A stretch of 64,000 nt of DNA from Arthrobacter zhangbolii (GTDB taxonomy: Bacteria; Actinomycetota; Actinomycetes; Actinomycetales; Micrococcaceae), in NCBI RefSeq assembly GCF_022869865.1, contig NZ_CP094984.1:2666001-2730000 (forward strand), read 5' to 3'. Below are positions 8,043 through 43,366 of this stretch, piece by piece. Position 1 is the first letter of the stretch, and every line of letters begins with the position of its first letter. The position numbers and the translations under genes are program-made. Under the pieces are notes generated by a model. It had not been told where the DNA came from, searched no databases, and saw nothing but the letters and a program-made list of their open reading frames with translations.

Positions 8043-8062
8043 CCTTGGCCGGAAAACGGGTC

Positions 8063-9664
<1,602 letters not shown>

Positions 9665-10003: not shown

Positions 10004-10005
10004 AA

Positions 10006-10045: not shown

Positions 10046-10068
10046 CGCGTGAAGCGAGGGGTTACCGG

Positions 10069-11751
<1,683 letters not shown>

Positions 11752-11761
11752 TCAAGGGGAA

Positions 11762-12058: not shown

Positions 12059-12152
12059 TCGGGCTCTCCTTTGCGTAGTTTCTAACGGGTTTGGGGCCGT
12101 CGGTTGGCGCTGGCCGTCGTCGCGGTGCCGGTTCGCGCTTCCCTTCGGGGAG

Positions 12153-12179
12153 TTAGCACCCTCACGTGCGGAGTGCTAA
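12153..12179 (-). promoter_or_regulatory. CIRCE operator 1 (HrcA site) upstream of groES
   Basis: TTAGCACCC, nine bases, then GAGTGCTAA. This matches the CIRCE consensus TTAGCACTC-N9-GAGTGCTAA with one mismatch in the left arm. It lies about 95 bases upstream of groES. CIRCE is the established binding site of the heat-shock repressor HrcA. Confidence 0.92.
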
Positions 12180-12198
12180 GTCAGACTTTATGCATTGG

Positions 12199-12225
12199 TT
12201 AGCACTCGGTCAAGGTGAGTGCCAG
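12199..12225 (-). promoter_or_regulatory. CIRCE operator 2 (degenerate) upstream of groES
   Basis: TTAGCACTC, nine bases, then GAGTGCCAG. The left arm matches the consensus exactly and the right arm in seven of nine positions. It begins 46 bases from the start of operator 1, so the two may bind HrcA side by side. Tandem CIRCE sites upstream of groES are known in actinobacteria. Confidence 0.82.
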
Positions 12226-12284
12226 AGCTGCGTGGATCACGCGCACAGGATTACGCCTCCGGGGTACCAATGACGTAAACCGAA

Positions 12285-12303
12285 TTTGCTTAGGCTTACC
12301 TAA
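12285..12303 (+). promoter_or_regulatory. Iron box (IdeR/DtxR/DmdR-like) upstream of siderophore operon
   Basis: The 19 bases contain TTAGGCTTACCTAA and match 16 of 19 positions of the IdeR/DtxR consensus (TTAGGTTAGGCTAACCTAA). It ends 88 bases before the substrate-binding protein start. In actinobacteria such boxes repress siderophore uptake when iron is plentiful, so the operon downstream is predicted to be induced by iron starvation. Confidence 0.82.
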
Positions 12304-12391
12304 CGGGATAGTTTTCATCTGCGCGCACCATTAGAAAACATTTCTGTGTCCTATTCCTGCGGTAGGCACATCGACTCTCACCGGAGCCCCC

Positions 12392-25703: not shown

Positions 25704-26246
25704 TCACTCCCGCACGCTTTCGCCGTCCCGGTCCGGCGCCGTTTCACCCTCTGTCAGCGAACGGTGCATGATGTGCAGTCCGGTCAGGCCGTGCCGCGGG
25801 TGCCGGAATGCCTCCGGCACGGTGGCGAGGATCCGGAAACCCAGCGACTGCCACAACCGCACTGCCCGGGTGTTGGTTTCCACCACGGCGTTGAACTGCA
25901 TGGACCGGTAACCGCGGCGGGCTGCCTCGGCCAGCACATGCTCGGCAAGCGCACGGGCGATGCCGCGTCCGGTGAACGCCGTCCCGGTCATAAACGACGC
26001 GTTGGCCACGTGGCTGCCGTTGCCGGGGCGGTTTGGGTGCAGCTGGGCCGTGCCCGCTACGGTTCCGTCCAGTTCAGCGACGAACACGACGGCCGGGGCA
26101 GGCTCCAGCCAGAGGGGCCGTGCTGCGTCCTCCGAAGCGGTGGTGTCCCAGCAGTAGGTCTCCCCGGACCGAAGCACCGGTTCCATGATGGCCCAGAGGC
26201 CCGGCCAGTCTCCCGGCCGGGCCTCCCGGATGTGCAGTCCCTCCAC
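25704..26246 (-). CDS. GNAT family N-acetyltransferase
   Basis: A 180-residue acetyltransferase. The core fold shows HIREARPGDWPGLWAI, the substrate-side WLEP and VAELDGTVAGTAQLHPN, and an acetyl-CoA region with TGRGIARALAEHVL. The substrate is unknown; phosphinothricin acetyltransferase-like and similar detoxification members look alike. The GTG at 26246 overlaps the stop codon of the aldo/keto reductase (TAGTG), implying coupling. A longer frame to 26270 is rejected for that reason. It is the last gene of the leftward hexuronate unit, but a role in it is not evident. Confidence 0.85.
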   Translation of the reverse strand: MEGLHIREARPGDWPGLWAIMEPVLRSGETYCWDTTASEDAARPLWLEPAPAVVFVAELDGTVAGTAQLHPNRPGNGSHVANASFMTGTAFTGRGIARALAEHVLAEAARRGYRSMQFNAVVETNTRAVRLWQSLGFRILATVPEAFRHPRHGLTGLHIMHRSLTEGETAPDRDGESVRE

Positions 26247-27292
26247 TACGCCTCGAGGGCGGCGGCCCACAGGTTGATCTTGGAATCCACTGCGTAGTCG
26301 TCGATCCGGCGCAGCTCGTCGTCGCTGAATTCGAGGTTGTTCACGGCGGCCAGGGAGTCCTCCAGCTGCTTGACGCTGGAGGCTCCGATCAGGGCGGAGG
26401 TGATGGCGGAGCCGTCCGGCTGAGTACGCAGGACCCAGGCGATGGCCATCTGCGCCAGGGTCTGGCCCCGGGATTCCGCAATGCTGTTCAGCCCCCGAAC
26501 CCGCTCCAGGTTCTGATCCGACAGCTGCGAGGGGTCCAGCGACTTGCCGGCGGCGGCCCGGGAATTATCCGGCACCCCGCCCAGGTACTTGTTGGTGAGC
26601 AGGCCCTGGGCCAGCGGTGAGAACGCGATGGATCCCGCGCCGACCTCACGCAGCGCCGCGAAGAGGTTGGGGTCCCCCTGTTCCACCCAGCGGTTGAGCA
26701 TGGAGTAGGAGGGCTGGTGGATCAGCAGCGGGGTGCCCATCTCCCGCAGGATCCGTGCCGCCTCGAGCGTCTTCTCCGGCGAATAGGAGGAAATACCCGC
26801 GTACAGGGCACGGCCGGAGCGTACGGCGGTATCCAGGGCCCCCATGGTTTCCTCCAGCGGGGTGTCCGGGTCCGGACGGTGGCTGTAGAAGATGTCCACG
26901 TAATCCAGCCCCATGCGTTCCAGTGACTGGTCCAGGCTGGAGAGCAGGTACTTGCGCGATCCCCAGTTGCCGTAGGGGCCCGGCCACATGTCATAGCCCG
27001 CCTTGCTGGAGATCACCAGCTGGTCCCGGTACGGGCGGAAGTCATCGCGCAGGTGGCGGCCGAAGTTGGTTTCCGCGGAACCGTAGGGCGGTCCGTAGTT
27101 GTTGGCCAGGTCAAAGTGCGTGACGCCCAGGTCGAAGGCACGGCGAAGAATGGCCCGCTGGGTGTCAAAGTCCTTGTCGTCGCCAAAGTTGTGCCAGAGC
27201 CCCAGCGAGACGGCCGGCAGTTTCAGCCCGCTCTCGCCAACCCGGCGGTACGGCATGGAATCGTATCGGTTTTCCGCAGCTTCATAAGTCAT
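26246..27292 (-). CDS. Aldo/keto reductase, YghZ (AKR14) type
   Basis: A 348-residue NADPH-dependent TIM-barrel oxidoreductase. The catalytic tyrosine lies in NNYGPPYGSAE and the lysine in VISSKAGYDMWPGPYG, the latter segment being typical of the YghZ/L-glyceraldehyde-3-phosphate reductase group. The C-terminal cofactor site includes SALIGASSVKQLEDSL. The frame extends to 27319; I prefer the ATG at 27292 but the start is not certain. It lies 49 bases after the altronate dehydratase and may handle an aldehyde sugar or a by-product of hexuronate breakdown. That role is inferred from position. Confidence 0.88.
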   Translation of the reverse strand: MTYEAAENRYDSMPYRRVGESGLKLPAVSLGLWHNFGDDKDFDTQRAILRRAFDLGVTHFDLANNYGPPYGSAETNFGRHLRDDFRPYRDQLVISSKAGYDMWPGPYGNWGSRKYLLSSLDQSLERMGLDYVDIFYSHRPDPDTPLEETMGALDTAVRSGRALYAGISSYSPEKTLEAARILREMGTPLLIHQPSYSMLNRWVEQGDPNLFAALREVGAGSIAFSPLAQGLLTNKYLGGVPDNSRAAAGKSLDPSQLSDQNLERVRGLNSIAESRGQTLAQMAIAWVLRTQPDGSAITSALIGASSVKQLEDSLAAVNNLEFSDDELRRIDDYAVDSKINLWAAALEA

Positions 27293-27341
27293 GGCCCCCA
27301 TAATGCCACCGTGCCCCACGCGGCGCTGCGTGCGGGTCCGC

Positions 27342-28967
27342 TCATGTCACGGCTCCCAGCTGCCACGGGACAAACTCATCCTCTCCGAGTTCCAGTTCCT
27401 CACTCACGGTCTGCCGGCCCGAGGCGGTGGCCAGGATCCGGTGGAAGATCCGCTCCCCCATCTCCTGCAGGTCGGTTCCGCCGTCAATGATTTCGCCGCA
27501 GTTGATGTCGATGTCTTCCGCCATCCGGCGGTACAGCTCCGTGTTGGTGCCCAGTTTGATGCTGGGCACCGGGCGGCAGCCCAGCACCGAACCGCGTCCG
27601 GTGGTGAAACACACCACCGTGGCCCCGCCAGCCACAATTCCGGTGACGGATACCGGGTCATAGCCCGGTGTATCCATAAAAACGAGCCCGGGCCCGCGGA
27701 TCCGGTCCGCATAGCCAATGACATCGGTGAGCTCGGCACGGCCTGCCTTGGCAACGGCGCCCAGCGACTTTTCCAGGATGGTGGTCAGTCCGCCCGCCTT
27801 GTTGCCCGGCGACGGGTTATTGTCCAGGCTGCCTCCGCCGCGGAGCGCGTACTCCTGCCACCAGCCCAGCCGGTCCAGCAGCCGCTCCCCCACAGTGCGG
27901 GTTACCGCCCGGGCGGCAAGGAGGTGTTCCGCACCGAAAACTTCCGGTGTTTCAGCCAGGACGGAAGTGCCGCCCCAGCCGACCAGCCGGTCCGAGGCCA
28001 CGCCCAGTGCCGGATTGGCGGTGATGCCGGAGTAGCCGTCCGATCCGCCGCAGTTCATCCCCAGGACCAGCTCCGAGACATCGATCGGTTCGCGCCGGCA
28101 TTCGTTCAGCACCGGCAGCATGCGCCGGACTGCCTCCACGCCGGCACGTACCGATGCCCGCACCCCGCCGGATTCCTGGATGACCAGCCGCTCAACCAGC
28201 TCGGCGGATATCTCCGCATCGATCAGGCGGTCGGCCTGCAGCATTTCGCAGCCCAGCCCCACCACCAGCAGTCCGGCGAAGTTCGGATGGTGGGAATAGC
28301 CGGACAGGGTCCGGAAGAGAATCTCTGCACCTTCACTGCCAGCCACCAGGCCGCAGCCGGAGGAATGCGTCAGTGCCATCACGCCGTCGATATTGGGGAA
28401 GGCATCAAGGACCGGGCCGCGGAACTGGTCCGCGATCATCCGGGCGGTGCTCGCGGAGCAGTTGACGGAGGTCAGGATTCCGATGTAATTCCGCGTCCCG
28501 GCACGCCCGTTGCGCCGTCGGTAGCCCTGGAAGACCGGCCGCGGACCGTCCGGCGCCGGCGGCTGGAAGCGTGCCGTGCCGAACTCAATGTCCTGCCCGG
28601 CTTCTGCCATCGCCAGGTTGTGGCTGTGGACATGGTCTCCGGCGGTAATCGGTGTGGTGGCCTGCCCAATGACCTGCCCGTATTTGTGTACCCGGTCTCC
28701 CGCGGCGATATCCGCCAGCGCCAACTTGTGCCCCTGCGGAATGTTGGCGGCGGGAACCAGGACGGACCCTCCGGGCCCCTCCACCGGCTCCCCTGCCGGG
28801 AGCAGGCGCAGGGCTACGCCTACTTCGTCCCCGTCAGCGAGGCGCAGCACGGCGGTGTGCCGTGCGGGTCCGCTCTGCGGGTTTTCGCTGTGCGGGCTGT
28901 CGCTGTGCGGGCTTTCGCTGTGCGGCTCGGCGGTACTGCCCGCCGGCGCTCCGGGAAGGCTGCTCAC
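27342..28967 (-). CDS. uxaA: Altronate dehydratase family protein (UxaA-like)
   Basis: Dehydrates D-altronate to 2-keto-3-deoxygluconate in galacturonate breakdown; galactarate dehydratase is the close alternative. The 541-residue protein has an N-terminal SAF-like domain (about residues 36-120) and the UxaA catalytic domain with [30 protein letters not shown] and [12 protein letters not shown], whose cysteines suit the iron-dependent enzyme. Before the SAF domain lies a 35-residue extension with [15 protein letters not shown] repeats coded by 15-bp units. The start overlaps the manD stop by four bases. Confidence 0.88.
28873..28932. repeat. 15-bp in-frame tandem repeats in the 5' end of uxaA
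   Basis: Three units of CTGTGCGGGCTTTCG with small changes, plus a fourth more degenerate one, read on the plus strand. On the coding strand they encode repeats of His-Ser-Glu/Asp-x-Pro. Period and frame are preserved, pointing to slippage growth of a flexible N-terminal tail. Confidence 0.82.
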
Positions 28968-30190
28968 CAGTCGTGCACCGTCCCGTCCAGCAGCCGGTTG
29001 ACCGGCAGGTACGCAGGTGTGTAGTCAAAGGATTTGGCGGCCTCGTCGTCGTAATCCACGCCCAGTCCCGGAGCCTCCCCGGGGTGCAGGAGCCCGTCCC
29101 TGAAGCTGTAGCCGGTGCGGAAGACGCGCAGGGTGTCCTCGGAGTGTTTCATGTACTCCTGGATCCCGAAGTTGTGCAGCGCCAGGCCCAGGTGCAGCTG
29201 GGCGGCCTGGCCCACCGGGGAAATATCCGTGGGTCCGTGGAACCCGGATTTGATCGAGTAAACGGCCGCGAAGTCCATCAGCTTCCGCAGCGCGGTGATG
29301 CCGCCGGTGTGGGTGACGGCCGAGCGGACATAGTCAATCAGCTGCTCGGTAATGAGTGTCTGATAGTCGTACACACTGTTGAACACTTCCCCGATGGCCA
29401 GCGGAACCGTGGTCTGCGAGCGCACGCGGCGCAGCGCCTCCTGGTTTTCCCCCGGTGTGCAGTCCTCCAGCCAGAACAGGTCATAGGGTTCCAGCGACTT
29501 TCCGAGCCCGGCAGCCTGGTTGGGGGTCATCCGGTGATGGCCGTCATGCAGCAGGACCAGTTCCGGACCGAACTCAGCCCGGACATCGGCGAAGACCTGG
29601 GGAATGTGGCGAAGATACGCCCGCGTGTCCCAGGCTTCCTCGGCGGGCAGCGGAGCCCGCAGCGCTGGTTCGTAGTCGTAGCGCTGTCCGGGCCGCTGGT
29701 CCGCGGCGACCCCGTAGATCTGGCCCAGTCCGGGGACTCCCGTCTGGACCCGGATGGCCCGGAAGCCCTGGTCCAGGTGATTGCGGATGGAGGTGAAGAG
29801 TGAATCCCGGTCGCTGCCCGAGGCATGGCCGTAGGCCAGGCAGCCCGTGCGTGACGCCCCGCCCAGCAGCCGGTAGAGCGGCAGCCCGGCCTCCTTGGCC
29901 AGGATGTCCCAGAGCGCGACGTCGACGGCGGCAATCGCTGCCATGGTGATCGGGCCGCGGCGCCAGTACGCCCCGCGGTACAGGTACTGCCAGGTGTCCT
30001 CGATCCGGCGTTCATCCCGGCCGATCAGCAGCGGCACCACGTGTTCCTTCAGGTAGGCGGCCACCGCCAGTTCACGGCCGTTGACGGTGGCATCGCCCAG
30101 CCCGACCACCCCGGAATCGGTGGTCAGCCTGAGCGTGACGAAGTTGCGGCCGGGGCTGGTGACCAGCACTTCTGCCGAGCGGATTGCCAT
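28964..30190 (-). CDS. manD: D-mannonate dehydratase-like enolase superfamily enzyme (ManD/RspA type)
   Basis: Predicted to dehydrate D-mannonate to 2-keto-3-deoxygluconate. The 408-residue protein has the enolase-superfamily capping domain and a C-terminal barrel with the metal ligands in [15 protein letters not shown] and IGEVFN, and the ManD/RspA-type ending [17 protein letters not shown]. ManD is unrelated to UxuA, the E. coli mannonate dehydratase. AAGGAG precedes the ATG. The family contains members with little or no mannonate activity, so the placement next to uxaC and a reductase is the main support for function. Confidence 0.85.
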
Positions 30191-30201
30191 GGTCTCTCCT
30201 T

Positions 30202-30274
30202 GGTAGGGGTGGTGCTGATAGGGGCGGTGCCGGTAGGGGTGGCTGACAGGTGTGGCGCCGGTAGGGGTGGAACT
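30202..30274. repeat. Degenerate 15-bp tandem repeats between uxaC and manD
   Basis: Units close to GGTAGGGGTGGTGCT at 30202, 30217, 30232 and 30260, with a 13-base degenerate unit at 30247. They fill most of the spacer between the uxaC stop (30309) and the manD start (30190). As RNA they would be C-rich on the transcribed strand. Confidence 0.72.
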
Positions 30275-30308
30275 GAGCGGGATGAAACCGTGCGCCCGGT
30301 CGCGGTTT

Positions 30309-31739
30309 TCAGGGCCGGGGCGCGTAGGACTGCAACGGAAGGTTGTAGGCGAGGTCTATTCCGGTCTCCACGGCCTCTGCCGCCGCCAGCCTGCCTTCCG
30401 CGACCAGACGGGCCAGGAAACCCGCATCGATCCTTCGGGCCAGGTCATGCCGGGCGGGGATGGACGCCAGCGCACGGGTGTCGTCAACGAAACCGCTGGT
30501 GTTGTAAAAGCCCGCGGTCTCCACCGCCGATTCGCGGAACCGGCGCATCTGTTCGGGGCTGTCCAGGAACCACCAGGGCGCACCAAGCCGCAGGGCGGGA
30601 TAGGCGCCGGCCAGGGGCGCCAGCTCCCGGGAGTACACCGTTTCGTCAGTCGTGAAGACAATCATCCGGAAACCCGGATCCATGCCGAAGCTGTTCAGCA
30701 GGGGCTGCAGCGCACGGGTGAATTCCACCCGCACCGGAATATCGAACCCCTTGTCGGTTCCATAGCGGCTGCGGACGGCACTGCTGTGGTTGCGCAGCAC
30801 CCCCGGATGCAGCTGCATCACCAACCCGTCCTCGGCGGACATGCGCGCCATTTCATACAGCATTCCGCCGGCGAAGGCTTCGGCTGCCGCCGCATCGGAC
30901 TCACCGCGCAGCGCGGCGGCAAAGATGCTCCGGGCGTCGGCCGGATCCAACGGCTCGGCCGACGCGCTGAGATGTCCGTGGTCCGTGGCCCTGGCACCCG
31001 CCTGCAGGAACGCTGCCCGGCGTTGCCGCAGGGCCAGCAGGAACGAGTCGTAATCCCCCGCTTCGATGCCGGAGACTTCCGAGAGCCGGCGGACGTCGGC
31101 CGCCCAGCCGGGCCTGCGGATGTGCAGCAGGTCATCGGGACGGAACGTGGGCAGGATCCGCTGGCGCCCTTCCTGCTCTGCAAGCTTCCGGTGCCCTGCA
31201 AGGCCGGAGGCGGCAGAGTCGGTGGTGGCCAGCAGTTCCACGTTGAAGCGGTCCAGCAGCGCCCTGGGGCGGGACTCGTCCCGGGCCAGCCGGTCAAGAA
31301 GAAAATCGTAAAGCCCGTCGGCGGTTTCCTCCGAGGGAGGTGCAGGAGCCTCGAAGACCACCGCCAGTTCGTGTTCCAGCCAGTAGCGGGTGGGGGTTCC
31401 CCGGAAGAGTTTCCAGTTGCGGCAGAACCGGCGCCAGACCTCGCGGGGATCCGTCTCGTACGGGGATCCGTCCTGTGTGGGGATACCCAGTGCTGCGGGG
31501 CTTTCCCCCTGCGAGACGAGCATACGCACGAGGTAGTGGTCCGGGATCACGAACATCTCGGCGGGATTGGCAAAGGGCTCGTCCTGCACCAGCAGGTCCA
31601 CGTCCACGTGCCCGTGCATCGACACAATGGGCAGTGCGGCGGTGGAGGCGTAGATTTCGCGGGCCAGGGCCCGGACGCCGGGCTCGGCCGGCAGGGCCCG
31701 ATCCGGGTCCAGCTGCCAGGCGGTGCGCTGTTCAGTCAC
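30309..31739 (-). CDS. uxaC: Glucuronate/galacturonate isomerase
   Basis: Isomerises D-glucuronate to D-fructuronate and D-galacturonate to D-tagaturonate, the entry step for both branches. The 476-residue amidohydrolase-fold protein has the metal-site segment [12 protein letters not shown] and the UxaC pattern [32 protein letters not shown], and [14 protein letters not shown]-type C-terminal residues ([16 protein letters not shown]). I start at the GTG at 31739 because AAAGGAGAGG lies seven bases upstream; the open frame to 31970 runs into the divergent promoter region. It is the first gene of the leftward hexuronate unit. Confidence 0.94.
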
Positions 31740-31766
31740 GTTGATGCCTCTCCTTTGAAACACGAC

Positions 31767-31774
31767 GTTTGCAA
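31767..31774 (-). promoter_or_regulatory. Operator half-site near uxaC
   Basis: GTTTGCAA just upstream of uxaC. The same eight bases begin the stronger palindrome at 31895. The right half is not a good match, so it is a candidate secondary LacI-type site only. Confidence 0.3.
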
Positions 31775-31886
31775 CAAATGCCACGCCCTGCACGGCCTGG
31801 TGCACTCCAATATGCGGGTGAATGCCTGAGAAGGCAAGGCCTTTCCGGGAGCGAATCAGCTTTGGAAAATCCGAACGGCGAAAGTA

Positions 31887-31915
31887 TTGACACGGTTTGC
31901 AAACGATTGCATTGT
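31887..31915 (+). promoter_or_regulatory. LacI-type operator overlapping a promoter, uxaC/lacI intergenic region
   Basis: TTGACA at 31887-31892 is a consensus -35 box; 17 bases later CATTGT is a weak -10. Between and overlapping them, 31898-31911 reads TGCAAACGATTGCA, a palindrome with the central CG typical of LacI-family operators. A repressor bound here would block RNA polymerase on the rightward unit and could also affect the leftward uxaC promoter. The LacI-type gene starting at 31970 is the obvious candidate regulator. Confidence 0.8.
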
Positions 31916-31969
31916 GTGGTGTACGCCACACTCCGGTGGCCGCGACAACGAGGTGAGGCGGGTCCTGCA

Positions 31970-33028
31970 ATGGCGGGTGCGGTAACTGTCAGGGATGTAG
32001 CGAGACTGGCCAGCGTCTCCGCATCAACGGTTTCACGTGCCCTCTCAGCATCGAACCTGGTCGCCCCGCACACCCGCGACCGCATCCTCGCCGCCGCAGC
32101 CCAGCTCGGGTACAGCGTGAACACCTCCGCACGCGGCCTGATCACCGGACGCACCAGCAACTTCGGCCTGGTGGTGCCGGATCTGGAAAACCCGTACTTC
32201 GCCTCAGTCACCAAGGGTGTGCAGGGCCGGGCCCTCAGCGAGGGCTACGCCGTTTTCGTGGCGGACTCGGACGAGGACGTGCGTGCGGAAATCGAGCTCG
32301 TACGGAAACTGGCCTCCCAGGTCGACGGGCTGATTCTCTGCTCTCCGCGCATGTCGGATGAGGATCTCGGGCAGATCGCCCGGGACACCACCATGGTGCT
32401 GATCAACCGGCGGCTGCCGCAGGTGGACAGCATCACTGTCGATGACACCGAGATTGTCCGCCAGGCGCTGGGACACCTTTACGCCCTGGGGCACCGTACG
32501 GTGTCCTACGCCGGCGGACCGGCGACGTCGTGGTCGGACAGCCAGCGTCGGAACGGCATCCGCCTGGCCCTCACCGATCTGCCGGGGCTTGAGGTGGTCA
32601 GCATCGGCTCCTTCCCGCCGGTTTTCGACGGCGGACTCTCCGCAGCTGACCTGGCGGCGGCGTCGGGCGCAACCGCGGTGCTGGCCTACAACGACCTCAT
32701 GGCACTTGGCATCCTCTCGCGCCTGCAGGCGCGGGGCATACGCGTACCGGAGCAGATGAGCGTGGTGGGCATCGATGACGTCAGCGCCGCCACCCTGGTC
32801 TCGCCGGCGCTCACTACCGTCCGCGCTCCCCTGCGCAAGGTCGGAACCGCGGCCGTGGACGCGCTGATCGACCGCATTCTTCCCGAACGCCGGGATCTGC
32901 CGCCCGAGGCCCTGCCCATCCACCTGATGATCCGCGATTCAACATCCGTTCCCCACCGTTCAGCAGTGCCCCTCACGTCCCGCGAAGACGCAGGACTCAA
33001 TGAAAGGTCAAGCAATGCGAAACAGTAA
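31970..33028 (+). CDS. LacI family transcriptional regulator
   Basis: A 352-residue repressor or activator. The helix-turn-helix and hinge are clear: VTVRDVARLASVSASTVSRAL at residues 5-25, then LAAAAQLGYSVNTSARGL. The remaining part is the periplasmic-binding-fold effector domain (FGLVVPDLENPYFASV, and VVGIDDVSAATLVSPALTTV near the end). The ATG at 31970 has GAGGTGAGG upstream; the frame extends left through the operator and is rejected. Its stop lies inside the first codons of the transport protein, so regulator and transporter are cotranscribed. The effector is probably a uronate or a pathway intermediate. Confidence 0.95.
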   Translation: MAGAVTVRDVARLASVSASTVSRALSASNLVAPHTRDRILAAAAQLGYSVNTSARGLITGRTSNFGLVVPDLENPYFASVTKGVQGRALSEGYAVFVADSDEDVRAEIELVRKLASQVDGLILCSPRMSDEDLGQIARDTTMVLINRRLPQVDSITVDDTEIVRQALGHLYALGHRTVSYAGGPATSWSDSQRRNGIRLALTDLPGLEVVSIGSFPPVFDGGLSAADLAAASGATAVLAYNDLMALGILSRLQARGIRVPEQMSVVGIDDVSAATLVSPALTTVRAPLRKVGTAAVDALIDRILPERRDLPPEALPIHLMIRDSTSVPHRSAVPLTSREDAGLNERSSNAKQ

Positions 33029-34238
33029 GAAATTGCAGATGGTTTCAGTCTTCGCGGCGACTGCGATGCTCGCAGCAGCCTGCGGGGCGCCCGGAGGAAA
33101 TGCCGGCGGGGAAGAGCTCGCCACGAGCGACGTTCCCGATGCCCCGTCAGAGGCGGTGACGCTGAACATTCTCGACGTTGCCGGCAACAAACAGCTGACC
33201 GAAGGGATCTTCGACTCCTTTGTCAGCGAGCACCCCGATGTTGTCTCGGGAGTTACGTGGGAAACTGCGGGTGCACCGGATATGGCGGGGAAGGTCAAGG
33301 CCCAGCAGCAGGCAGGGAACCTGCAGATTGACCTGGTGCTCACCGGAACCGACGGCCTGTCCGCAGGGATCAGCGAGGATCTCTTTGTCCCCATCGCCGC
33401 GGACTACAAGGACCGGCTCTCGAATATGGACAACTACCAGGAGCCTGCAGCGGAAATGCAGAAACTGGCCGAGGACAAGGGGGTGGCCCTGACGTACTAC
33501 CCCTCGGGTCCGCTGTTGGAGTACAACCCCGAGAAGGTTCCCAACCCGCCCACCACGGCCGAGGAACTGCTGACCTGGACCCAGGAGAATCCCGGCCGGT
33601 TCGGGTACGCGCGCCCGGCAAACTCAGGTCCCGGCCGCACCTTCCTGATGGGGCTGCCCTACATCCTTGGCGACGACGATCCCAAGGACCCGGCGAACGG
33701 CTGGACGAAAACGTGGGACTACCTCCAGCAGCTGAACCAGAACATCAGCTCCTACCCCACCGGCACCGGCGTCACCATGAACAACCTGAAAAACGGGACC
33801 TGGGACATGGCACTGACCACCACCGGCTGGGACATCAATCCGAGGGCACTTGAGCAGGTGCCGGCCAACTTCGAGGTGCAGGCGCTGGAAGGCTTTACCT
33901 GGGTGACAGATGCCCAGTACGCGGTTGTCCCCAAGGGCGTGTCTGCGGACAAGATGTCGGCCATCCTGCAGGTCCTGCAGTATGCCCTGACCCCTGAGCA
34001 GCAGGCGAAAACCTATGACAGCGGCTATTTCTACCCGGGTCCGGCCGTTGAAGGCGTGACCCTGGACATGGCCCCGCAGAGCAGCCAGGACGTCATCGCC
34101 AAATTCGGCCGTCCTGAATACGACGCCCTCATTGAGGACAACCCCAAGGCAACCCCGATCAGTGCCGAGGATCTGGTCACGGCCTTTAACACCTGGGATA
34201 CCGACGTGGCGAGCGGAAAGATCGAAGAAAAGAAATGA
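33015..34238 (+). CDS. ABC transporter substrate-binding lipoprotein (Fe3+/polyamine type)
   Basis: A 407-residue extracytoplasmic binding protein. The signal peptide ends in the lipobox AAAC with Cys23, giving a membrane-anchored lipoprotein. The mature part is an extracellular solute-binding fold of the PotD/AfuA-like kind (GVTWETAGAPDMAGKVKA, then WDMALTTTGWDINPRAL). I start at the ATG at 33015 with AAAGG upstream, overlapping the regulator gene by 14 bases. The family label suggests iron or polyamines, but the operon is with uronate enzymes, so a uronate or oligo-uronide is the more likely ligand. Confidence 0.92.
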   Translation: MRNSKKLQMVSVFAATAMLAAACGAPGGNAGGEELATSDVPDAPSEAVTLNILDVAGNKQLTEGIFDSFVSEHPDVVSGVTWETAGAPDMAGKVKAQQQAGNLQIDLVLTGTDGLSAGISEDLFVPIAADYKDRLSNMDNYQEPAAEMQKLAEDKGVALTYYPSGPLLEYNPEKVPNPPTTAEELLTWTQENPGRFGYARPANSGPGRTFLMGLPYILGDDDPKDPANGWTKTWDYLQQLNQNISSYPTGTGVTMNNLKNGTWDMALTTTGWDINPRALEQVPANFEVQALEGFTWVTDAQYAVVPKGVSADKMSAILQVLQYALTPEQQAKTYDSGYFYPGPAVEGVTLDMAPQSSQDVIAKFGRPEYDALIEDNPKATPISAEDLVTAFNTWDTDVASGKIEEKK

Positions 34239-35365
34239 GCATCCAGGCAACTTCCTTCAAGACACTGGAGCTCGAGCACGTCGCCAGGAATTTCGGCGGA
34301 CAGGCGGCTCTGAGCGACCTGAACCTGAATATCCGCAGCGGCGAATTTATCGCCCTGCTCGGACCCTCCGGCTGCGGAAAGTCCACGGCGCTGAACTGCC
34401 TGGCCGGGCTGCTGCCCCTCACCGGCGGACGCATCCTCATGGACGGCCGCCAAATAGACCGGTTGGTGCCGGAAAAACGGGGCTTCGGCATGGTATTCCA
34501 GAACTATGCGTTGTTTCCGCACCTGAGCGTGGAGAAAAACATCGCGTTCGGGCTGGAAATGCGCAGGATCCCCCGGGCCGAGATCAAAACCAGGGTGGCG
34601 GAGGCCATCGAGCTGGTCCAGCTCGGCCCGCATGCCAGGAAACTCCCCGGGCAGATGTCCGGCGGACAGCAGCAGCGGGTCGCCATCGCGCGCGCCGTAG
34701 TGCTGCGTCCCCCGCTGGTGCTGATGGATGAACCGCTCTCGAACCTGGATGCGAAGCTCCGGCTGGAGATGCGGACCGAAATCCGCCGCCTGCACCAGTC
34801 CCTCGGCCTGACCACGATCTACGTCACCCATGACCAGGAGGAAGCACTGTCCCTCGCTGACCGCCTGGTGGTGCTGCGCCAGGGCGAAGTCCAGCAGGTG
34901 GGCACGCCCCAGGACCTGCATGAGCACCCCGCCAACTGGCACGTTGCCGACTTCATGGGGTACCGGAACCTGCTCGACGGCGTCGTGGAGCATACGCGCG
35001 GCGGCATGGCCACTGTCTCCGTAGCGGGCACGGGCATCACCGGCGCCACCCGGGATCCGCTTGCCCCGGGAGACGCAGTGAAAGTGGGGATCCGCCCCGA
35101 GGACTTCGAAATCACCGATGCTAGCGGCCCGGACGCCGGCCATACCCGGCTCGAAGCGGTGGTCGAAGTGGTCGAATACCAGGGCCGGGAATTCGCGGTC
35201 GAAGCCCGGACCGACACCGGCCAGGCACTCCACATCCGGACCCACCGCACGGCCGAAGCAGGGCAGCGGATCACGGTCTCGGCGCCCCACGAACGGGTCC
35301 TTGTTTTTGCTTCAGCCCTGACGGCTGCGGCGCCCGTCCCGGAGCTGCAGGAGGCCACGCCATGA
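34235..35365 (+). CDS. ABC transporter ATP-binding protein (PotA/UgpC-like)
   Basis: A 376-residue ATPase for the neighbouring importer. Walker A is GPSGCGKST, the signature MSGGQQQRVAIARA, Walker B VLMDEPLSNLD, and the switch histidine lies in YVTHDQEEAL. The C-terminal 120 residues form a TOBE-type domain (KVGIRPEDFEI). Start and stop both overlap the neighbours by four bases. The type fits both polyamine/iron importers and CUT1 sugar importers, so it does not decide the substrate. Confidence 0.95.
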   Translation: MSIQATSFKTLELEHVARNFGGQAALSDLNLNIRSGEFIALLGPSGCGKSTALNCLAGLLPLTGGRILMDGRQIDRLVPEKRGFGMVFQNYALFPHLSVEKNIAFGLEMRRIPRAEIKTRVAEAIELVQLGPHARKLPGQMSGGQQQRVAIARAVVLRPPLVLMDEPLSNLDAKLRLEMRTEIRRLHQSLGLTTIYVTHDQEEALSLADRLVVLRQGEVQQVGTPQDLHEHPANWHVADFMGYRNLLDGVVEHTRGGMATVSVAGTGITGATRDPLAPGDAVKVGIRPEDFEITDASGPDAGHTRLEAVVEVVEYQGREFAVEARTDTGQALHIRTHRTAEAGQRITVSAPHERVLVFASALTAAAPVPELQEATP

Positions 35366-36288
35366 CCCAGGCGCCCGGGAGGTCCCGCAGCGCCGCCCCG
35401 GAAAAACCCGGAACCCGCCCCGCACTCTCCCACCGGCTTGCCGAGCGCGGCATTGACCGGCTGCTCCTGCTGCTGGTGCCGGCCCTGCTGTTCGCCCTGG
35501 TGCTGTTTGTGTATCCGTTTGTCTACGGCCTCGGGCTGTCCTTCCAGCCGCGTGAAGGCGGCCTGTTCGGCGCCTACGTCAAGTTCTTCACGGATCCCTC
35601 CATGCGGGGACTGGAATCCATCTGGATCACGCTGAAGCTCGCAGTCCCGGCCGCCGTCTTTAACGTTGCCGCCTCAATTCCCATCGCCTACAAGATGCGG
35701 GGAAAGTTCCGCGGCAAGCGGGCGCTGACCACCGTTCTGGTCATTCCGATTACCCTCGGCACCGTGCTGACGGCCGAAGGGCTGCTGAACTTCTTCGGCC
35801 AGCGCGGCTGGCTCAACCGGTTCCTGGAGATTTTCGGTTTCGGTCCCCTGGACCTGGTGCAGAACTACTGGGGAGTGCTGTGGTCCCTGATCATCTCGGG
35901 GTTTCCTTTCGCCTTCCTGCTGATCCTCTCCTACCTCTCCGGAATCGACCCCTCATTGGAGGCCGCCGCACAGACGCTGGGCGCGGATTGGAAGCAGAGG
36001 TTCCGGAAGATCACGCTGCCGCTCCTGGCTCCCGGCCTGGCCATCACCTTCTGCCTGACCTTTGTCCTGGCCTTCAGCGTTTTTCCGTCGGCCATCCTGG
36101 TGGGTGACCCGTCCGGCTCCACCCGGGTGATCGCCTACGTTGCCTACAACGCCTGGGGGCAGCAGTTCGACTATCCCCTGGCATCTGCCGCCGCAATTGT
36201 CATGGGTGCGGTGGAACTACTCGTCATTATCCTGGTGCTGCTGTGGCGGTCCCGGATGTACAAGGGAAGCACCGGAGGCAAAGGCTGA
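35362..36288 (+). CDS. ABC transporter permease 1 (PotB-like)
   Basis: A 308-residue membrane subunit of the binding-protein-dependent transport type. After a basic Pro/Arg-rich N-terminus come six hydrophobic helices. The coupling EAA motif is EAAAQTLGADWKQRFRKITLPL near residue 200. The shape, with a longer first loop after the first helix and single-domain form, is that of PotB/PotH-like permeases. It overlaps the ATPase gene by four bases and its TGA shares bases with the next ATG (TGATG). Confidence 0.93.
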   Translation: MTQAPGRSRSAAPEKPGTRPALSHRLAERGIDRLLLLLVPALLFALVLFVYPFVYGLGLSFQPREGGLFGAYVKFFTDPSMRGLESIWITLKLAVPAAVFNVAASIPIAYKMRGKFRGKRALTTVLVIPITLGTVLTAEGLLNFFGQRGWLNRFLEIFGFGPLDLVQNYWGVLWSLIISGFPFAFLLILSYLSGIDPSLEAAAQTLGADWKQRFRKITLPLLAPGLAITFCLTFVLAFSVFPSAILVGDPSGSTRVIAYVAYNAWGQQFDYPLASAAAIVMGAVELLVIILVLLWRSRMYKGSTGGKG

Positions 36289-37172
36289 TGAGCGCAACCA
36301 CCCTCAAGGACACCGAGGCACCGCCGGTACCGGAGCCCGGACGGCGGCAGTTGAAGGCCACCCCCGGAACGTTCCTGGTCTGGGGCGGCATGGCCCTGTT
36401 CCTGATTCTCCTTTTCGGCGTTGTCGCCTCCGTGGTGGTGAACTCCTTCGCCGGCCAGTGGTTCGACTCCTGGTTCCCCTCCGGCTATACAACCGCCTGG
36501 TACGGGGAAGCCTGGCAGCAGTACGATCTCACCCAGGTGGTCAGCACCACCGTGATTGTCGCCGTGGCCGTCGTCGGCATTTCGGTCCTCATCGGTGCGC
36601 CCGCCTCCTATGTCCTTGCCCGGCGCAGTTTCCCCGGCAAGAACATAGTCATGCTGGTCTTCCTCCTGCCGATCATGATGCCGCCGATCACGTACGGCAT
36701 TCCGCTGGCGACACTGCTGACCTACTACCATCTGGCACCTGGCCTGACCGGGGTCATCCTGGCCAACCTGGTGCCTTCGGTACCGTTCGTCATCCTGACC
36801 ATGACGCCGTTCATTGAACAGATCAACCCGTCCATCGAGTCCGCCGCGCGCATGTGCGGAGCCAATATGACACGGTTGTTTACCCGGATCCTTGCACCGC
36901 TGCTGATTCCGGGGGTGCTGGCCGCGGCTGTGCTGGTCCTGGTGCGCACCGTCGGAATGTTTGAACTGACCTTCCTCACCTCCAATTCAAGTTCCGACAC
37001 CCTGGTGGTGGCACTCTTCACGGCGATGACGGGGGCCGGCATCCGGGCACAGCAGTCGGTGGACGCCATGGCCGTGATTTACATGCTCATGATGATGGTG
37101 CTCCTGGTGGTTGCGCTCCGGTTCGTGAATCCCACGCAGCTGGTTTCCCAGGTGCGTGAAGATGTGGACTGA
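36288..37172 (+). CDS. ABC transporter permease 2 (PotC-like)
   Basis: A 294-residue partner permease. Six helices are visible and the EAA motif is ESAARMCGANMTRLFTRILAPL. The ATG at 36288 overlaps the stop of permease 1. A frame extension upstream to 36243 lies inside that gene and is rejected. Together with the binding protein and ATPase this makes a complete four-gene importer. The end overlaps the reductase gene by 11 bases or more. Confidence 0.93.
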   Translation: MSATTLKDTEAPPVPEPGRRQLKATPGTFLVWGGMALFLILLFGVVASVVVNSFAGQWFDSWFPSGYTTAWYGEAWQQYDLTQVVSTTVIVAVAVVGISVLIGAPASYVLARRSFPGKNIVMLVFLLPIMMPPITYGIPLATLLTYYHLAPGLTGVILANLVPSVPFVILTMTPFIEQINPSIESAARMCGANMTRLFTRILAPLLIPGVLAAAVLVLVRTVGMFELTFLTSNSSSDTLVVALFTAMTGAGIRAQQSVDAMAVIYMLMMMVLLVVALRFVNPTQLVSQVREDVD

Positions 37173-38706
37173 GACCGGCCCGCAGATCCCTCCTGCCGGG
37201 AAAGCGGCTCCGCGGTTGAGCCGGGCGTCCCTTGCGTCCGCCGGATGCGGTTCCGCGCTCGGTCCCGCGGTGGATCCGGGCAGCCTGCGGACCGGAATGG
37301 TCCATCTGGGGCTGGGGGCCTTCCACCGGGCACACCAGGCGGTGTACACCGAAGACGCTGCCGCTGCCACCGGCGACACCGGCTGGGGAATCCTGGGTGT
37401 GACCGGCAGGAGCGCCCGGGTGGCCGACACGCTGAAACCGCAGGACGGGCTGTACACGGTGCTGACGAAAGCGCAGCCCGGTGCGGGCAGTGCGGCAGAT
37501 GCATCACTTCGGATCATCGGATCGCTGCGCGGCGCTGTGTTTCCCGGCCGTGACACACCACTGCTGCTCCGGGCACTGGCAGAACCGGACACCCGGGTGC
37601 TGACCCTGACGGTGACGGAGAAGGGCTATCCCCGGGATGCCTCAGGACATCTGGCCATGGCCGACGGCGTGGCAGCGGACCGGGCCGCCCTTGCTGCTGA
37701 CAGCCGGCAGCGCCCGGCGTCCTCCGACGTCGCCGCCCGCACCCCGCTGGGCCTGCTGGCACGCGGCCTGTTTGCACGCTACCGCTCATCGGGTGCCCCG
37801 CTCAGCGTGGTGTCCTGCGACAACCTCATCAGCAACGGTGCCCTGACGCGAACACTGGTCACGGAGCTCGCGGAAGCCGGGGGCACCGGCTTTTGTGCCT
37901 GGCTGCAGGAATCGGTGGCGTTCCCCTCCACCATGGTGGACCGGATTGTCCCGGCAGCCACGGAAGCAGACCGGCAGCTGGGCAGTGGCATACTCGGGCT
38001 CCGGGACGAGGCACTCGTGGTGGCGGAGCCCTTCGGCCAGTGGATTCTGGAGGATGCCTTCGCCGCCGCCCGCCCGGCCTGGGAACTGGCCGGGGCGGTC
38101 CTGACCCCTGACGTGGCCCCCTTCGAAGCAGCGAAGCTGCGCCTGCTCAACGGCACCCACTCACTGCTGGCATACCTGGGTGCACTGAAGGGCCATGCCA
38201 CCATCGCCGACGCGGCAGCGGATGAGGACCTCGCCGCTGACGCGTCCGCGCTGCAGGCGGAGGCCATCCGCACCCTGGTTCCGCCCCCGGGGGTGGACCT
38301 GCAGGAATACTCGGCTTCCATCCTGGCCCGGTTCCGTAATCCGGCCCTCGGCCACACCACACTCCAGGTGGCCATGGACGGTTCCCAGAAGCTTCCGGTC
38401 CGCGCCCTGGCGACGGTGGCGGACCTGTTGGCTCTGGGTACGGTTCCGGAGGCCCTGGCCCGGCTGGTGGCCGCGTGGATGGTGTTCGTTTACCGGCAGC
38501 GGAATGTCCACGGTTCCGTGCTGCCGCTGGAGGACCCGTTACGGGAAACCCTGGCCGCACAGGCTGCCGGCCCGGAATCCGGGCTTGTCGACAGGCTCCT
38601 GGACCTCTCCGCGGTGTTCCCGCCCCCGGTGGCCGGCCACCCCGGTTTCCGTGCAGCCGTCAAGGTCCATGCCGCTGAGCTGCTCGCCGCGGTTCCGGGG
38701 CGCTAG
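37162..38706 (+). CDS. uxuB: Mannitol dehydrogenase family protein, fructuronate reductase-like
   Basis: NAD(P)-dependent long-chain polyol dehydrogenase, probably reducing D-fructuronate to D-mannonate (UxuB), or tagaturonate to altronate (UxaB). The 514-residue protein has the Rossmann region MVHLGLGAFHRAHQA, the family TVTEKGY, VVSCDNLISNG, FPSTMVDRIVPA, and the catalytic KLRLLNGTHSLLAYLG (lysine in AAKLRLLNG). The ATG at 37162 is preferred, although a GTG two codons earlier is possible. It overlaps the permease gene and is the last gene of the rightward operon. It is the only uronate reductase in the locus. Confidence 0.9.
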   Translation: MWTETGPQIPPAGKAAPRLSRASLASAGCGSALGPAVDPGSLRTGMVHLGLGAFHRAHQAVYTEDAAAATGDTGWGILGVTGRSARVADTLKPQDGLYTVLTKAQPGAGSAADASLRIIGSLRGAVFPGRDTPLLLRALAEPDTRVLTLTVTEKGYPRDASGHLAMADGVAADRAALAADSRQRPASSDVAARTPLGLLARGLFARYRSSGAPLSVVSCDNLISNGALTRTLVTELAEAGGTGFCAWLQESVAFPSTMVDRIVPAATEADRQLGSGILGLRDEALVVAEPFGQWILEDAFAAARPAWELAGAVLTPDVAPFEAAKLRLLNGTHSLLAYLGALKGHATIADAAADEDLAADASALQAEAIRTLVPPPGVDLQEYSASILARFRNPALGHTTLQVAMDGSQKLPVRALATVADLLALGTVPEALARLVAAWMVFVYRQRNVHGSVLPLEDPLRETLAAQAAGPESGLVDRLLDLSAVFPPPVAGHPGFRAAVKVHAAELLAAVPGR

Positions 38707-39284: not shown

Positions 39285-41036
39285 TCAGTTCCCTGCTGCG
39301 CCCAGCACTGCAGCGCCGTAGCCGGGCAGCTGCAGTGCGTCGCCGTAAAGCTCCGACGGGCCCGTCTCAAGCAGGACCTGCGCTGCTGTACCCAGGGGAA
39401 CCGGAACTTCCCGCGCCGTATCGGCGAAGTTCAGCGCCACGGCGGTGTCTCCGCGCCGGAACACCAGCCAGCGTCCCACCTCGTCGAAGTCCACACTCGT
39501 AGCGTCCATATCCGGGTCGGTCAGGTCCGGACGGTTCCGGCGCAGGTCCAGGAGTTGCCGGTACAACCCCAGCAGCCGGCCGTGGCCATCACCTTCAGCT
39601 TCGGACCAGTCCAGCTTCGAATTGGCGAAGGTCTGCGGGTCCTGCGGATTCGGTACGGTGTCCGGATCCCATCCCATCCGTTCGAATTCCCGCAGCCGTC
39701 CTTCCGCCGTCGCCTTGCCCAGCTCAGGTTCCGGATGCGAGGTAAAGAACTGCCAGGGAGTGGACGCCCCGAATTCCTCGCCCATAAAGATCATGGGCGT
39801 AAACGGCGACGTCAGGTTCAGCACGGCCGCCAGCGCCAGCTGCGGGTAGTCCAGGCTCGCGCTGAGCCGGTCCCCTGCCGCCCGGTTGCCGATCTGGTCA
39901 TGGTTCTGGGTGCAGACCACCAGCTGCCGGGCGGAAACCCGGTCCTTGTCGATGGGCCGTCCGTGGGTTCGTCCGCGGAAGGATGAAAAGGTGCCGTTGT
40001 GGAAGAAGCCTTCCTGCAGCACCTTCGCCAGGGCTTCGACGGAATCGAAGTCCTCGTAGTAGCCCCCGTTTTCCCCGGTGAGGTTGGTGTGCGCGGCGTG
40101 ATGGAAGTCATCGGACCACTGCCCGGCCAGGCCGTAGCCGTTCACGTTCCGCGGCGTGATCAGCCGGGGGTTGTTCAGGTCGGATTCGGCAATCAGGAAC
40201 AGCGGTTTGCCGAGTGTTTCCGCGCACTCATCGGTGGCGGCAGCAATCTCTTCGAGGATGTGCACCGCCCGTTCGTCGTGCAGTGCGTGGACGGCGTCCA
40301 GGCGCAGCCCGTCCACGTGGTAGTCGCGGAACCACATCAGCACGTTCTCCACGATGTACTCGCGAACGGTGTCCGACAGCGGTCCGTCCAGGTTCACCGA
40401 ATCCCCCCAGGTGTTGGCTTTCCCTTCCGTGAGGTAGGGGCCGAACATGGGCAGGTAGTTGCCGCTGGGACCAAGGTGGTTATAGACCACGTCCTGGATA
40501 ACGCCCAGGCCCGCCCGGTGCGCGGCGTCGACAAAGCGCTGGTAGGCCTCGGGCCCGCCGTAGGTTTCCTGCACGGAATACCACAGCACGCCGTCGTAGC
40601 CCCAGTTGTGTGTCCCGTTGAAGGAGTTCACCGGAAGCAGCTCCACGTACCGCACGCCCAGCTCCGCCAGGTAGCCCAGCCGCTCGATGGCTGCATCCAG
40701 GGTTCCCTCGGGGGTGAAGGTGCCAACATGCATCTCGTAGATGGCCCCGCCGTCGAGCCCCGGAGACACCCAGTCCCCGTCCTGCCAGTCGAAGAGCTCC
40801 GGGTCAAACGTCCGGGACAGCTCATGCACGCCCGCCGGCTGCCGGCGGGAGCGCGGATCAGGCACCGGAGTCCCGGCGTCGTCAATGAGATAGCCGTAGT
40901 CAATGTCCTCGAGCAGCTCGGCATGCTGGGCGTGCCACCAGCCGTTCTCACCCCGGCTCATGGACAGGCGGCGCCCGTCCGCCAGCAGGGTCATGGTGTT
41001 GGCTTTGGGAGCCCACACATCGAAGTTCGTCCTCAC
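39285..41036 (-). CDS. treZ: Malto-oligosyltrehalose trehalohydrolase
   Basis: Releases trehalose from maltooligosyl-trehalose, the last step of the TreY/TreZ route. The 583-residue GH13 enzyme has an N-terminal beta domain ([17 protein letters not shown]), the (beta/alpha)8 barrel with nucleophile Asp in [10 protein letters not shown] and acid Glu in LIAESDLN, and the [13 protein letters not shown] and [10 protein letters not shown] segments typical of TreZ. It is last in glgX-treY-treZ and overlaps treY by four bases. Confidence 0.96.
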
Positions 41037-43366
41037 TCGCCGTCCTCCCGAACCAGCAGCGCCACCGGGTAGCTGCCGAACAGATCTGCGACGGCCACCC
41101 GGCCGTCGCTTGTATGGGTAGTTCCCGTAATGACGTCGCGGTAGGTTCCCGCGGGCAGCAACACACCGGTTTCCTGCCAGCCGCCCTGCACCTGCAGCCC
41201 CACCGGGAGGCGGGTCACCAGGGTCACTGCTCCGCCGCGGTCAAAACCGAAAAGGTGCCGGGCTGCCGGGCCCTCCGCTGTGACGGGAACGTAGCCGCTG
41301 AAGAGCTCGGGCCGGCCGCGCTTGAGCTGGAGCGCGCGGGTGGTGATCAGCAGTTTTGCCGCTGCGTCCTCATCAACTTCCGGGGCTCCGGTTCCGGCGA
41401 ACGACGCCGCCACGTCCCGGCGGCGCTGGAAGTCCACCTCGCGCCGGTTGTCCGGGTCCACGAGGGACCGGTCCCAGAATTCCGTGCCCTGGTAGACATC
41501 CGGAACGCCGGGCATGGTCAGTTGCAGCAGCTTGGCCGAGAGCGAGTTGGAGTATCCCGCGGTGCGGATCCGCTCCACCAGGGAGGTAACCAGGGTATTC
41601 ACCTCGGCGTCGTCAAACGCGGCGTCGATCGCGGCGTGCATCCGGGCTTCGAACGCTGCGTCGGGGGCCGTCCAGGTGGTGCTGGCAGATGCCTCCCGTG
41701 AGGCTTTTTCCGCGTACGCATGTGCACGGTCCCGGCTGAGCGGCCAGGCGCCGATGACGGCCTGCCAGAGCAGGTTCGCCATCGGCTCGTCACCCATGGG
41801 CGCCAGTGCCTGCAGTTTCCCGAAGGCGGCTGCCCACTCGTCGGGGATTTCCGAGAGAACGGAAATCCGGGCGCGGGTGTCTTCGCTGCGCTTGGTGTCA
41901 TGCGTGGTCAGGGCTGTCATGGCGGCGGGCTGTTCCAGCTGCCGCCGAAGCAGCCTGGCATGCAGCTCAAACGGCGTGACGGCGAAGTGCGCCGGATCGG
42001 CACCCACTTCGTTCAGGGAGGTCAGGCGTGAGTAGCGGTAGAACGCGGTGTCCTCCACGCCTTTCGCCATCACCATCCCGGAGGTCTGCTGGAACCGGAC
42101 CGCGAGTTCTCCGAGGTCAGCCAGCGGGACAGTGGACGTCTCCCCTGCCGGCAGCGGGTTCAGCAGCCGGTGCAGGATGTGCAGGGCACCGGCAAGGTCC
42201 GGCCGACGAACGGTCGCGGCAACCACGGCGTCCGTGAGGTATTCACTCCCCTCGGGCAAGTAGCTGCGGTAGACCGGGAAGCAGGCCAGCAGCTCCGCCA
42301 GGGCGTCCGCTGCGGTTGCCGGATCCAGCCCTGAGTCCGCGGGCAGGAGCCGCACCAGCCGCTGCACCTCCGAGTTCAGCAGCTGATCCGCGATGCCGCG
42401 CTTGGTGCCGTGGATCATGTCGGCGTAGGGCTCGGTAGGCACGAGGGCGGTGAGTGTCTCCTCGCCGGCCGGGTCGGTGAAGAGACGGTCGACGTCGGCG
42501 AGCGCGTCGTAGCCTGTGGTGCCTTCGGTTTCCCAGTCCCGGGGCAGGGACTCTCCCGGTTCCAGAATCTTTTCAACCAGGATGTAGGCGCCGCCGGTAA
42601 GTTCCCGCAGCCGGGCGAGGTAGCCCTTGGGGTCCGCGAGTCCGTCCGGGTGGTCGATCCGCAGTCCGTCCACGAGCGACTCGTCGAACCACCGTCGGAT
42701 CTCGGCGTGGGCCTCGTCGAACACCCAGGGCTCCTCCACGCGGATGCCTGCCAGGGTGTTGACGCCGAAGAACCGGCGGTAGTTCAGCTCGCTGTCGGCC
42801 CGCCGCCAGTTCACCAGTTCATAGTGCTGACGTGCGTGGACCTCCTGTGCCGAATCCCCGTCCCGCGCCGTGCCGGGAGCCACCGGGTAGCGGTTCTCGT
42901 AGTAGTGCAACTCACCGTTGACCAGCTTGAGCTGCTCCAGTTCGTTGTCGCCGTCGCCCAGGACGGGAAGGCGCAGCTTTCCGCCACCCGCTTCCCAGTC
43001 AATGTCGAAGGCCTCCGCGTACCGGGAGCCGCGGCCGTGTTCGAGTACCGACCACCACCATTTGTTCCGGGCAGGCGTGGCGACGCCCATGTGGTTGGGC
43101 ACAATGTCCACCAGCACCCCCATCCCGGCTGCGTGGGCGGCCTCCGAGAGTGCCTTGAGCCCGTCAGCTCCGCCCCTGGCCGGATCGACGGCGGAGGGGT
43201 CAACCACGTCGTAGCCGTGGTCGGAGCCCTCCTCCGCTGTCAGGATCGGCGAGAGGTAGACCCAGTCCACGCCGAGGTCCGCCAGGTACGGGACCAGGGC
43301 GGCGGCGTCGTGGAGGGTGAACGACGGGCGGATCTGCAGGCGGTACGTGGACAGCGGGGTCCTCAT
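41033..43366 (-). CDS. treY: Malto-oligosyltrehalose synthase
   Basis: Converts the reducing end of maltodextrins to an alpha,alpha-1,1 linkage. The 777-residue GH13 enzyme begins [12 protein letters not shown], has the early substrate region PNHMGV, nucleophile Asp in [10 protein letters not shown], the acid Glu in [11 protein letters not shown], and the TreY-specific [15 protein letters not shown] and [11 protein letters not shown]. Overlaps glgX and treZ by four bases each, so the three are translationally coupled. Confidence 0.96.

Follow-up and report, generated by a model that had tools for sequence, protein, structure and literature searches.

Which substrate is carried by an importer whose genes lie among those of hexuronate catabolism? 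This question is raised by a locus in a 64,000-nucleotide stretch of the Arthrobacter zhangbolii genome (NZ_CP094984.1, positions 2,666,001 to 2,730,000; hereafter the window, with positions counted from its first base), where genes for the isomerase UxaC, the D-mannonate dehydratase ManD, a dehydratase of the GD_AH family and a UxuB-like reductase flank a LacI-family regulator and an ATP-binding cassette (ABC) importer (Table 1). The genome is a single contig of 3.46 Mb. An initial annotation of the sequence had suggested a little-described importer of uronates or oligo-uronides within the iron/polyamine-type family. A role of the importer in uronate catabolism has good support from its linkage to uronate genes in two phyla, its co-occurrence with UxaC, a shared operator, and its occupancy of the place behind uxaC that is held elsewhere by tripartite ATP-independent periplasmic (TRAP) carriers. 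We consider that the system probably imports monomeric hexuronates and is a non-orthologous substitute for TRAP, GPH or CUT1 carriers.

Linkage to hexuronate genes in Actinomycetota

Among the genomes sampled, 3 of 197 from the same family, 17 of 297 from the order and 6 of 296 from the class encode a strong relative of the binding protein; such relatives also occur at 4 loci in named genomes. The weak relatives L051-L053 (26-30% identity) were excluded from the 26-locus and 17-genome counts; with two of them added, the order sample would comprise 19 importer genomes, and the two genomes dropped in this way (G358 and G459) both have UxaC. The same gene set was sought in other actinobacteria, as the initial annotation had proposed, and one or more of the four enzymes UxaC, ManD, the dehydratase and UxuB were encoded near the importer at 15 of the 26 actinobacterial loci where the binding protein has a strong relative. 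Pathway-consistent variants were also present: UxuA, the substitute of ManD, beside uxaC in L036, KduI in L055 and a GH115 enzyme in L047. The operon of L025 includes a PfkB kinase and a 2-keto-3-deoxy-6-phosphogluconate (KDPG) aldolase, whose blast relatives were found in 5 and 2 further loci, respectively, and L025 is the only one of the 26 loci that shares the gene order of the window for the aldo-keto reductase.

When the binding proteins were placed in a tree, uronate-linked members appeared on every main branch with the unlinked ones nested among them, and the uronate-linked label required 6 changes compared with a shuffled mean of 10.5. As a separate observation, the binding protein of L046 is duplicated, with copies at 8722-9987 and 11408-12643 on either side of lacI.

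A second phylum and the position behind uxaC

When plasmid records were searched at the protein level, 24 contained a relative of the binding protein (up to 58% identity), and the names of 22 of these 24 are proteobacterial. Gene context was examined for 12 of the 24, and hexuronate-type enzymes stood beside the importer in 6 of these 12. The Aureimonas record and two Sinorhizobium records share the order uxuA, GntR regulator, uxaC, solute-binding protein, ATPase, two permeases and mannitol dehydrogenase. The order in R. grahamii is uxuA, GntR regulator, solute-binding protein, ATPase and permeases; that in Ancylobacter is importer, uxuA, mannitol dehydrogenase, GntR regulator and altronate dehydratase; and that in Azospirillum is importer, GntR regulator and mannitol dehydrogenase. 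The Caballeronia record gave nothing but a short match to altronate dehydratase, and the Streptomyces record carries a LacI gene and the importer with no match to the pathway queries. No relative was found in phage records.

In three records picked by hand from 133 with a uxaC match, those of Rhodobacter sp. CZR27, S. meliloti and P. yeei, the position immediately after uxaC is taken by a TRAP carrier. This alternation of TRAP and ABC systems in one operon slot is the strongest single argument that both carry the same kind of substrate. According to the available part of one report, a GntR protein of R. sphaeroides represses uxaC, the transport genes RSP_0487-3, whose type is not named, and kduID-uxuB (PMC4344238).

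Co-occurrence with UxaC and the history of UxaC

UxaC was present in 129 of the 297 genomes of the order sample. All 17 importer genomes had it, compared with 112 of the 280 others (Fisher's test, P = 3.7e-7), and by genus it was present in 11 of 11 importer genera compared with 51 of 94 in all (P = 7e-4), both P values being made optimistic by kinship among the genomes. With the importer genomes of the family and class added, UxaC was found in 22 of 23.

We then compared 40 other uxaC loci, a non-random set taken mostly from the tops of lists (20 of 59 family genomes and 20 of 129 order genomes), which includes four genomes with the importer elsewhere (G359, G422, G330 and G439). None of these 40 loci encodes this binding protein. 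The carriers found near uxaC were TRAP (8), MFS_2 (10), SBP_bac_1 (8) and SBP_bac_5 (5), with none of these at 16 loci; some loci hold two kinds, and one member per cluster was verified by Pfam. In L112, from a genome of the same genus without the importer (G172), the more distant uxaC is accompanied by a GH2 enzyme and an ABC system of the SBP_bac_5 type.

A quick tree of 50 UxaC proteins required 3 changes of the label 'next to importer', compared with a mean of about 11 for shuffled labels, and none of the 500 shufflings was as low. The window UxaC grouped with importer-linked proteins including that of Flexivirga (95*). The wider group of 13 rows (support 89) contained 10 importer-linked UxaCs and three others, two of which come from genomes with the importer elsewhere (G422 and G439) and one from a genome where none was found (G319). 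Importer-free UxaCs of the same family were 44-49% identical to the window protein, and 19 of the 20 fell into a separate starred group, L121 being unplaced. The placement of L028, a long branch (28% identity), has no meaning. The tree would fit a cassette that moves as one unit.

A shared operator

The palindromic sequence TGCAANCGNTTGCA has its sole exact genome copy at 31898-31911, 58 bases before lacI and 158 bases before uxaC. A survey of 29 loci (534 kb), three of which are weak-relative loci, found 18 sites that differ from it at no more than one base (7 are exact copies), whereas five control palindromes had 0 to 3 each. All 18 are no more than 160 bases away from the start called for lacI, uxaC or the binding-protein gene, such starts being rough. 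The weight of the operator derives from this conservation across loci and not from its counts in the genome or the window; within the window, its count at two mismatches was not above chance. No wider regulon was found: the other genomic site with at most one mismatch (585692) lies close before a gene of the alpha-amylase family, after which another LacI gene follows.

A scan for sigma-70 promoters found none at the scan threshold; read by eye, TTGACA at 31887-31892 may be part of one whose spacer contains the operator. An isolated operator half-site, TGCAAACG, is located at 31766-31773 on the minus strand, 27 bases before the uxaC start, and in L036, L037 and L044 a second, near-complete site lies close to uxaC. 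An exact copy was also observed at 11022-11035 of L141, the uxaC locus of G422; since the importer of that genome is elsewhere, this suggests regulation in trans.

Relationship of the importer to known systems

The binding-protein-dependent importer is complete, with lipoprotein, ATPase and permeases encoded together in overlapping genes. The binding protein was closer to E. coli YnjB (hhalign probability 97, with 24% identity across 234 columns) than to PotD (probability 53), and the PotD model was absent from its NCBIfam matches. It scored 99 bits with SBP_bac_8 compared with 28 bits with SBP_bac_1. PRK11622, which we take to be the YnjB model, matched 26 of 26 relatives at E ≤ 0.01, but the window protein reached only 45 bits, far short of the cut-off of 203. 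We consider that YnjB-type should be the family label. The designation PotABCD/AfuABC-like in the initial annotation fits the ATPase, which is 44% identical to E. coli PotA, but not the binding protein; the permeases are remote relatives of PotB and PotC (26-27% identity). A tentative pattern for the EAA loop matched neither permease; trial motifs for the permeases and the reductase were likewise without a match and were set aside.

Among named relatives, the binding protein is nearest to one from Arthrobacter sp. zg-Y238 (93% identity). No relative was found among solved structures (PDB) at a useful E-value, the best being 0.19 and 0.48, a thiamine-binding protein. Cys28, N208-R213 and R282 are invariant in all 26 proteins of an alignment that excludes L042 and L057, and we infer that N208-R213 and R282 form the ligand site.

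Compared with E. coli YnjBCD, annotated as a putative ABC transporter, the window system differs in having two permeases and a long PotA-like ATPase instead of one long permease (YnjC) and a short ATPase (YnjD), and no uronate genes adjoin ynjBCD. The spermidine importer PotABCD resembles it in the ATPase and permeases, but the context of the window system is uronate catabolism. TRAP-type uronate carriers share the place behind uxaC and belong to an unrelated transporter class, being powered by an ion gradient rather than ATP. GPH-type (MFS_2) and CUT1-type (SBP_bac_1) systems, which also occur near uxaC, are of different families. Actinobacillus AfuABC, likened here by description and not by sequence, was first named for iron and found to carry anionic sugars, although its ligands are sugar phosphates, as far as the available part of its description states (PMC4546632).

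Catabolic enzymes and the proposed route

Family assignments were made with Pfam and NCBIfam, and ManD and UxaC exceeded the curated cut-offs, whereas the UxuB-like reductase and the GD_AH dehydratase did not. ManD aligns over its length with solved ManD structures. The best NCBIfam match of the reductase was the fructuronate reductase PRK15037 (306 bits, cut-off 603). The dehydratase, described initially as UxaA-like, was 40% identical to E. coli GarD (323 bits) and 38% identical to UxaA (295 bits); either assignment may hold, altronate dehydratase being the probable one. The substrates of both proteins are thus predicted by similarity.

We propose that the YnjB-type lipoprotein would capture a monomeric hexuronate, D-glucuronate and/or D-galacturonate, and that the two permeases and the PotA-like ATPase would bring it into the cell at the expense of ATP, both ligand and direction of transport being predictions. 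UxaC would convert it to fructuronate or tagaturonate, which the UxuB-like enzyme would reduce, and ManD (acting on mannonate) or the GD_AH dehydratase (probably on altronate) would yield 2-keto-3-deoxygluconate. Relatives of a 2-keto-3-deoxygluconate kinase and of KDPG aldolase, encoded at another place in the genome, would complete the route. The LacI protein would repress both divergent operons through the one operator and would be released, probably, by a pathway intermediate.

Adjacent genes at about G000:C1:720-722 kb encode relatives of the aldolase (57%) and the kinase (55%) of L025. They fall within a second uronide-type locus, G000:C1:720232-728378 (L163, 9232-17378), which encodes a PfkB kinase, a KDPG aldolase, a short-chain dehydrogenase/reductase (SDR), a zinc alcohol dehydrogenase, an IclR regulator, KduI and a TRAP carrier that may serve unsaturated uronates. 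With this TRAP carrier, the genome has two candidate uronate uptake systems.

Weighing of other substrates

Several observations weigh against a simple assignment of the importer to uronates. None of the four enzymes was found in the stretch examined at 11 of the 26 actinobacterial loci, and in three genomes (L035, L038 and L039) the importer and LacI genes stand beside conserved amidase, zinc alcohol dehydrogenase and aminotransferase genes. One genome, G676, has an importer relative without UxaC. Among the plasmid records, relatives of 46-58% identity adjoin NagA/NagB-like genes (Roseomonas and Phyllobacterium), MR/MLE dehydratases (Bosea), or, in Gemmobacter, an oxidative gene set that includes L-arabinonate dehydratase, a lactonase-family protein and an SDR and may serve uronate or pentose. 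At one mismatch or less, the genome has as many sites for the reversed control as for the operator (2 and 2). Given the second locus with its TRAP carrier, moreover, the genome may import uronates by more than the ABC system. The missing enzymes and the sugar-acid and amino-sugar neighbors would be expected if the system took up a different sugar acid or a broader set of sugars, for example mannonate, altronate, aldonates or amino sugars, with uronates as at most one substrate. We regard this as unlikely, given that UxaC, which is required for uronates and not for aldonates, accompanies the importer in all but one of the genomes counted above and that the importer operon of three alphaproteobacterial records includes uxaC. 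The family may nevertheless extend beyond uronates, and strict uronate specificity of all its members is not claimed because relatives adjoin NagA/NagB-like, amidase or oxidative sugar-acid genes. In L177 and L178, at about 7100-10100, binding-protein relatives were seen directly behind NagB/NagA-like genes with no adjoining ATPase or permeases.

Binding-protein systems often carry oligosaccharides, and the GH115 alpha-glucuronidase gene that adjoins uxaC in L047 is what would be expected if the importer took a uronic acid glycoside (an aldobiouronic acid, a glucuronide or a di-galacturonide) that is hydrolysed in the cell to supply this pathway. Against this, the place is occupied in relatives by TRAP carriers, whose substrates are small acids, and no glycoside hydrolase is encoded among the ten genes of the locus. 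The genome search covered two hydrolase and lyase families, PF07470 (GH88/105) and PF00544 (pectate lyase), and neither had a match; this fits the use of free monomers, and pectin breakdown through these two families was rejected. An imported glycoside is improbable in our estimate, and of the initial proposal the link to uronate catabolism finds good support in comparative genomics, whereas the oligo-uronide part is not supported for this locus. Least credible is an importer of ferric iron or polyamines that lies among uronate genes by accident. The likeness of the ATPase to PotA and the membership of the permeases in the same broad superfamily speak for it, but PotD was the poorer match of the two proteins tested, the importer genes overlap the LacI and UxuB-like genes, and linkage and co-occurrence span two phyla. 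A precedent is offered by AfuABC, which despite its name imports hexose phosphates according to the part of the report available (PMC4546632). Since the binding protein is not PotD-like and the uronate context recurs in two phyla, we consider this explanation highly improbable. Chance adjacency as such was ruled out by the linkage, the UxaC co-occurrence and the operator. Import of monomeric hexuronates is the reading we prefer.

Organization of the locus

All ten genes of the locus were found at their given positions and were confirmed by Pfam and NCBIfam (Table 1). The six genes on the plus strand, lacI, those of the importer and the UxuB-like reductase gene, form a single run with overlaps of up to 29 bases (lacI and binding protein), 4 (binding protein and ATPase), 4 (ATPase and permease 1), 1 (permease 1 and permease 2) and 11 or 17 bases (permease 2 and reductase). 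Coupling by overlaps, as claimed initially for the whole locus, thus holds for this run, but not for the divergent genes on the minus strand (uxaC, manD, the GD_AH dehydratase gene and the aldo-keto reductase gene), which are a second operon judged by spacing. There, gaps of 118 bases (uxaC to manD) and 22 bases (dehydratase to aldo-keto reductase) were observed, and 230 bases separate the uxaC start at 31739 from the lacI start at 31970. The uxaC start is probably the GTG at 31739 behind an AAAGGAG ribosome site; the mechanical open reading frame (ORF) extends to 31970. The gap between uxaC and manD is largely filled by imperfect direct repeats (30199-30281; spacing 15 and 28 bases). Beyond the locus, three consecutive large ORFs on the minus strand (39285-45555) resemble the trehalose/glycogen enzymes TreZ, TreY and GlgX by eye.

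Table 1. Features of the hexuronate locus, in window positions
Feature	Position	Strand	Evidence and remarks
Aldo-keto reductase, L-glyceraldehyde-3-phosphate reductase-like	26246..27319	-	PF00248 E 2e-66; NF007388 489 bits (cut-off 448); by position the final gene of its operon
Galactarate/altronate-type dehydratase, GD_AH family with SAF domain	27342..28967	-	PF04295; PF20629 E 7e-101; TIGR03248 396 bits (below cut-off 731)
D-mannonate dehydratase ManD	28964..30190	-	NF043051 674 bits (cut-off 550)
Glucuronate/galacturonate isomerase UxaC	30309..31739	-	NF002794 487 bits (cut-off 387)
LacI-type operator TGCAAACGATTGCA	31898..31911	none	Between the divergent operons; conserved in related loci
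LacI-family regulator	31970..33028	+	PF00356, PF13377; adjoins importer in most related loci
YnjB-type lipoprotein solute-binding protein	33000..34238	+	SBP_bac_8, PF13416 E 5e-28
ABC importer ATPase with TOBE_2 domain	34235..35365	+	PF00005, PF08402
ABC importer permease 1	35362..36288	+	BPD_transp_1, PF00528 E 1e-12
ABC importer permease 2	36288..37172	+	BPD_transp_1, PF00528 E 2e-11; start overlaps permease 1 stop
UxuB-like fructuronate reductase, perhaps also tagaturonate	37156..38706	+	Mannitol_dh protein: PF01232, PF08125

Implications

A word-matched search of open-access literature for uronate ABC importers or the gene set, whose coverage leaves out most subscription journals, found no description of this importer. 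ExuR, KdgR, UxaR and UxuR are regulators of glucuronate and galacturonate use in a report whose available part does not mention Arthrobacter (PMC4052901), and the system is likewise not mentioned in the available part of PMC9007349. The evidence for and against seems to us evenly balanced on the broader proposal that the locus represents an undescribed family of hexuronate ABC importers, exchanged as a cassette with catabolic genes in Actinomycetota and Pseudomonadota and replacing TRAP, GPH and CUT1 carriers there, and that orphan YnjB-type proteins including E. coli YnjB may be sugar-acid receptors. If these assignments are true, another transporter class would be added to uronate uptake, and annotations of iron or polyamine transport in this family could be corrected. 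The uncharacterised YnjB group would gain a testable ligand class, and the gene set would help to predict which soil and plant bacteria use the sugar acids derived from pectin and hemicellulose.

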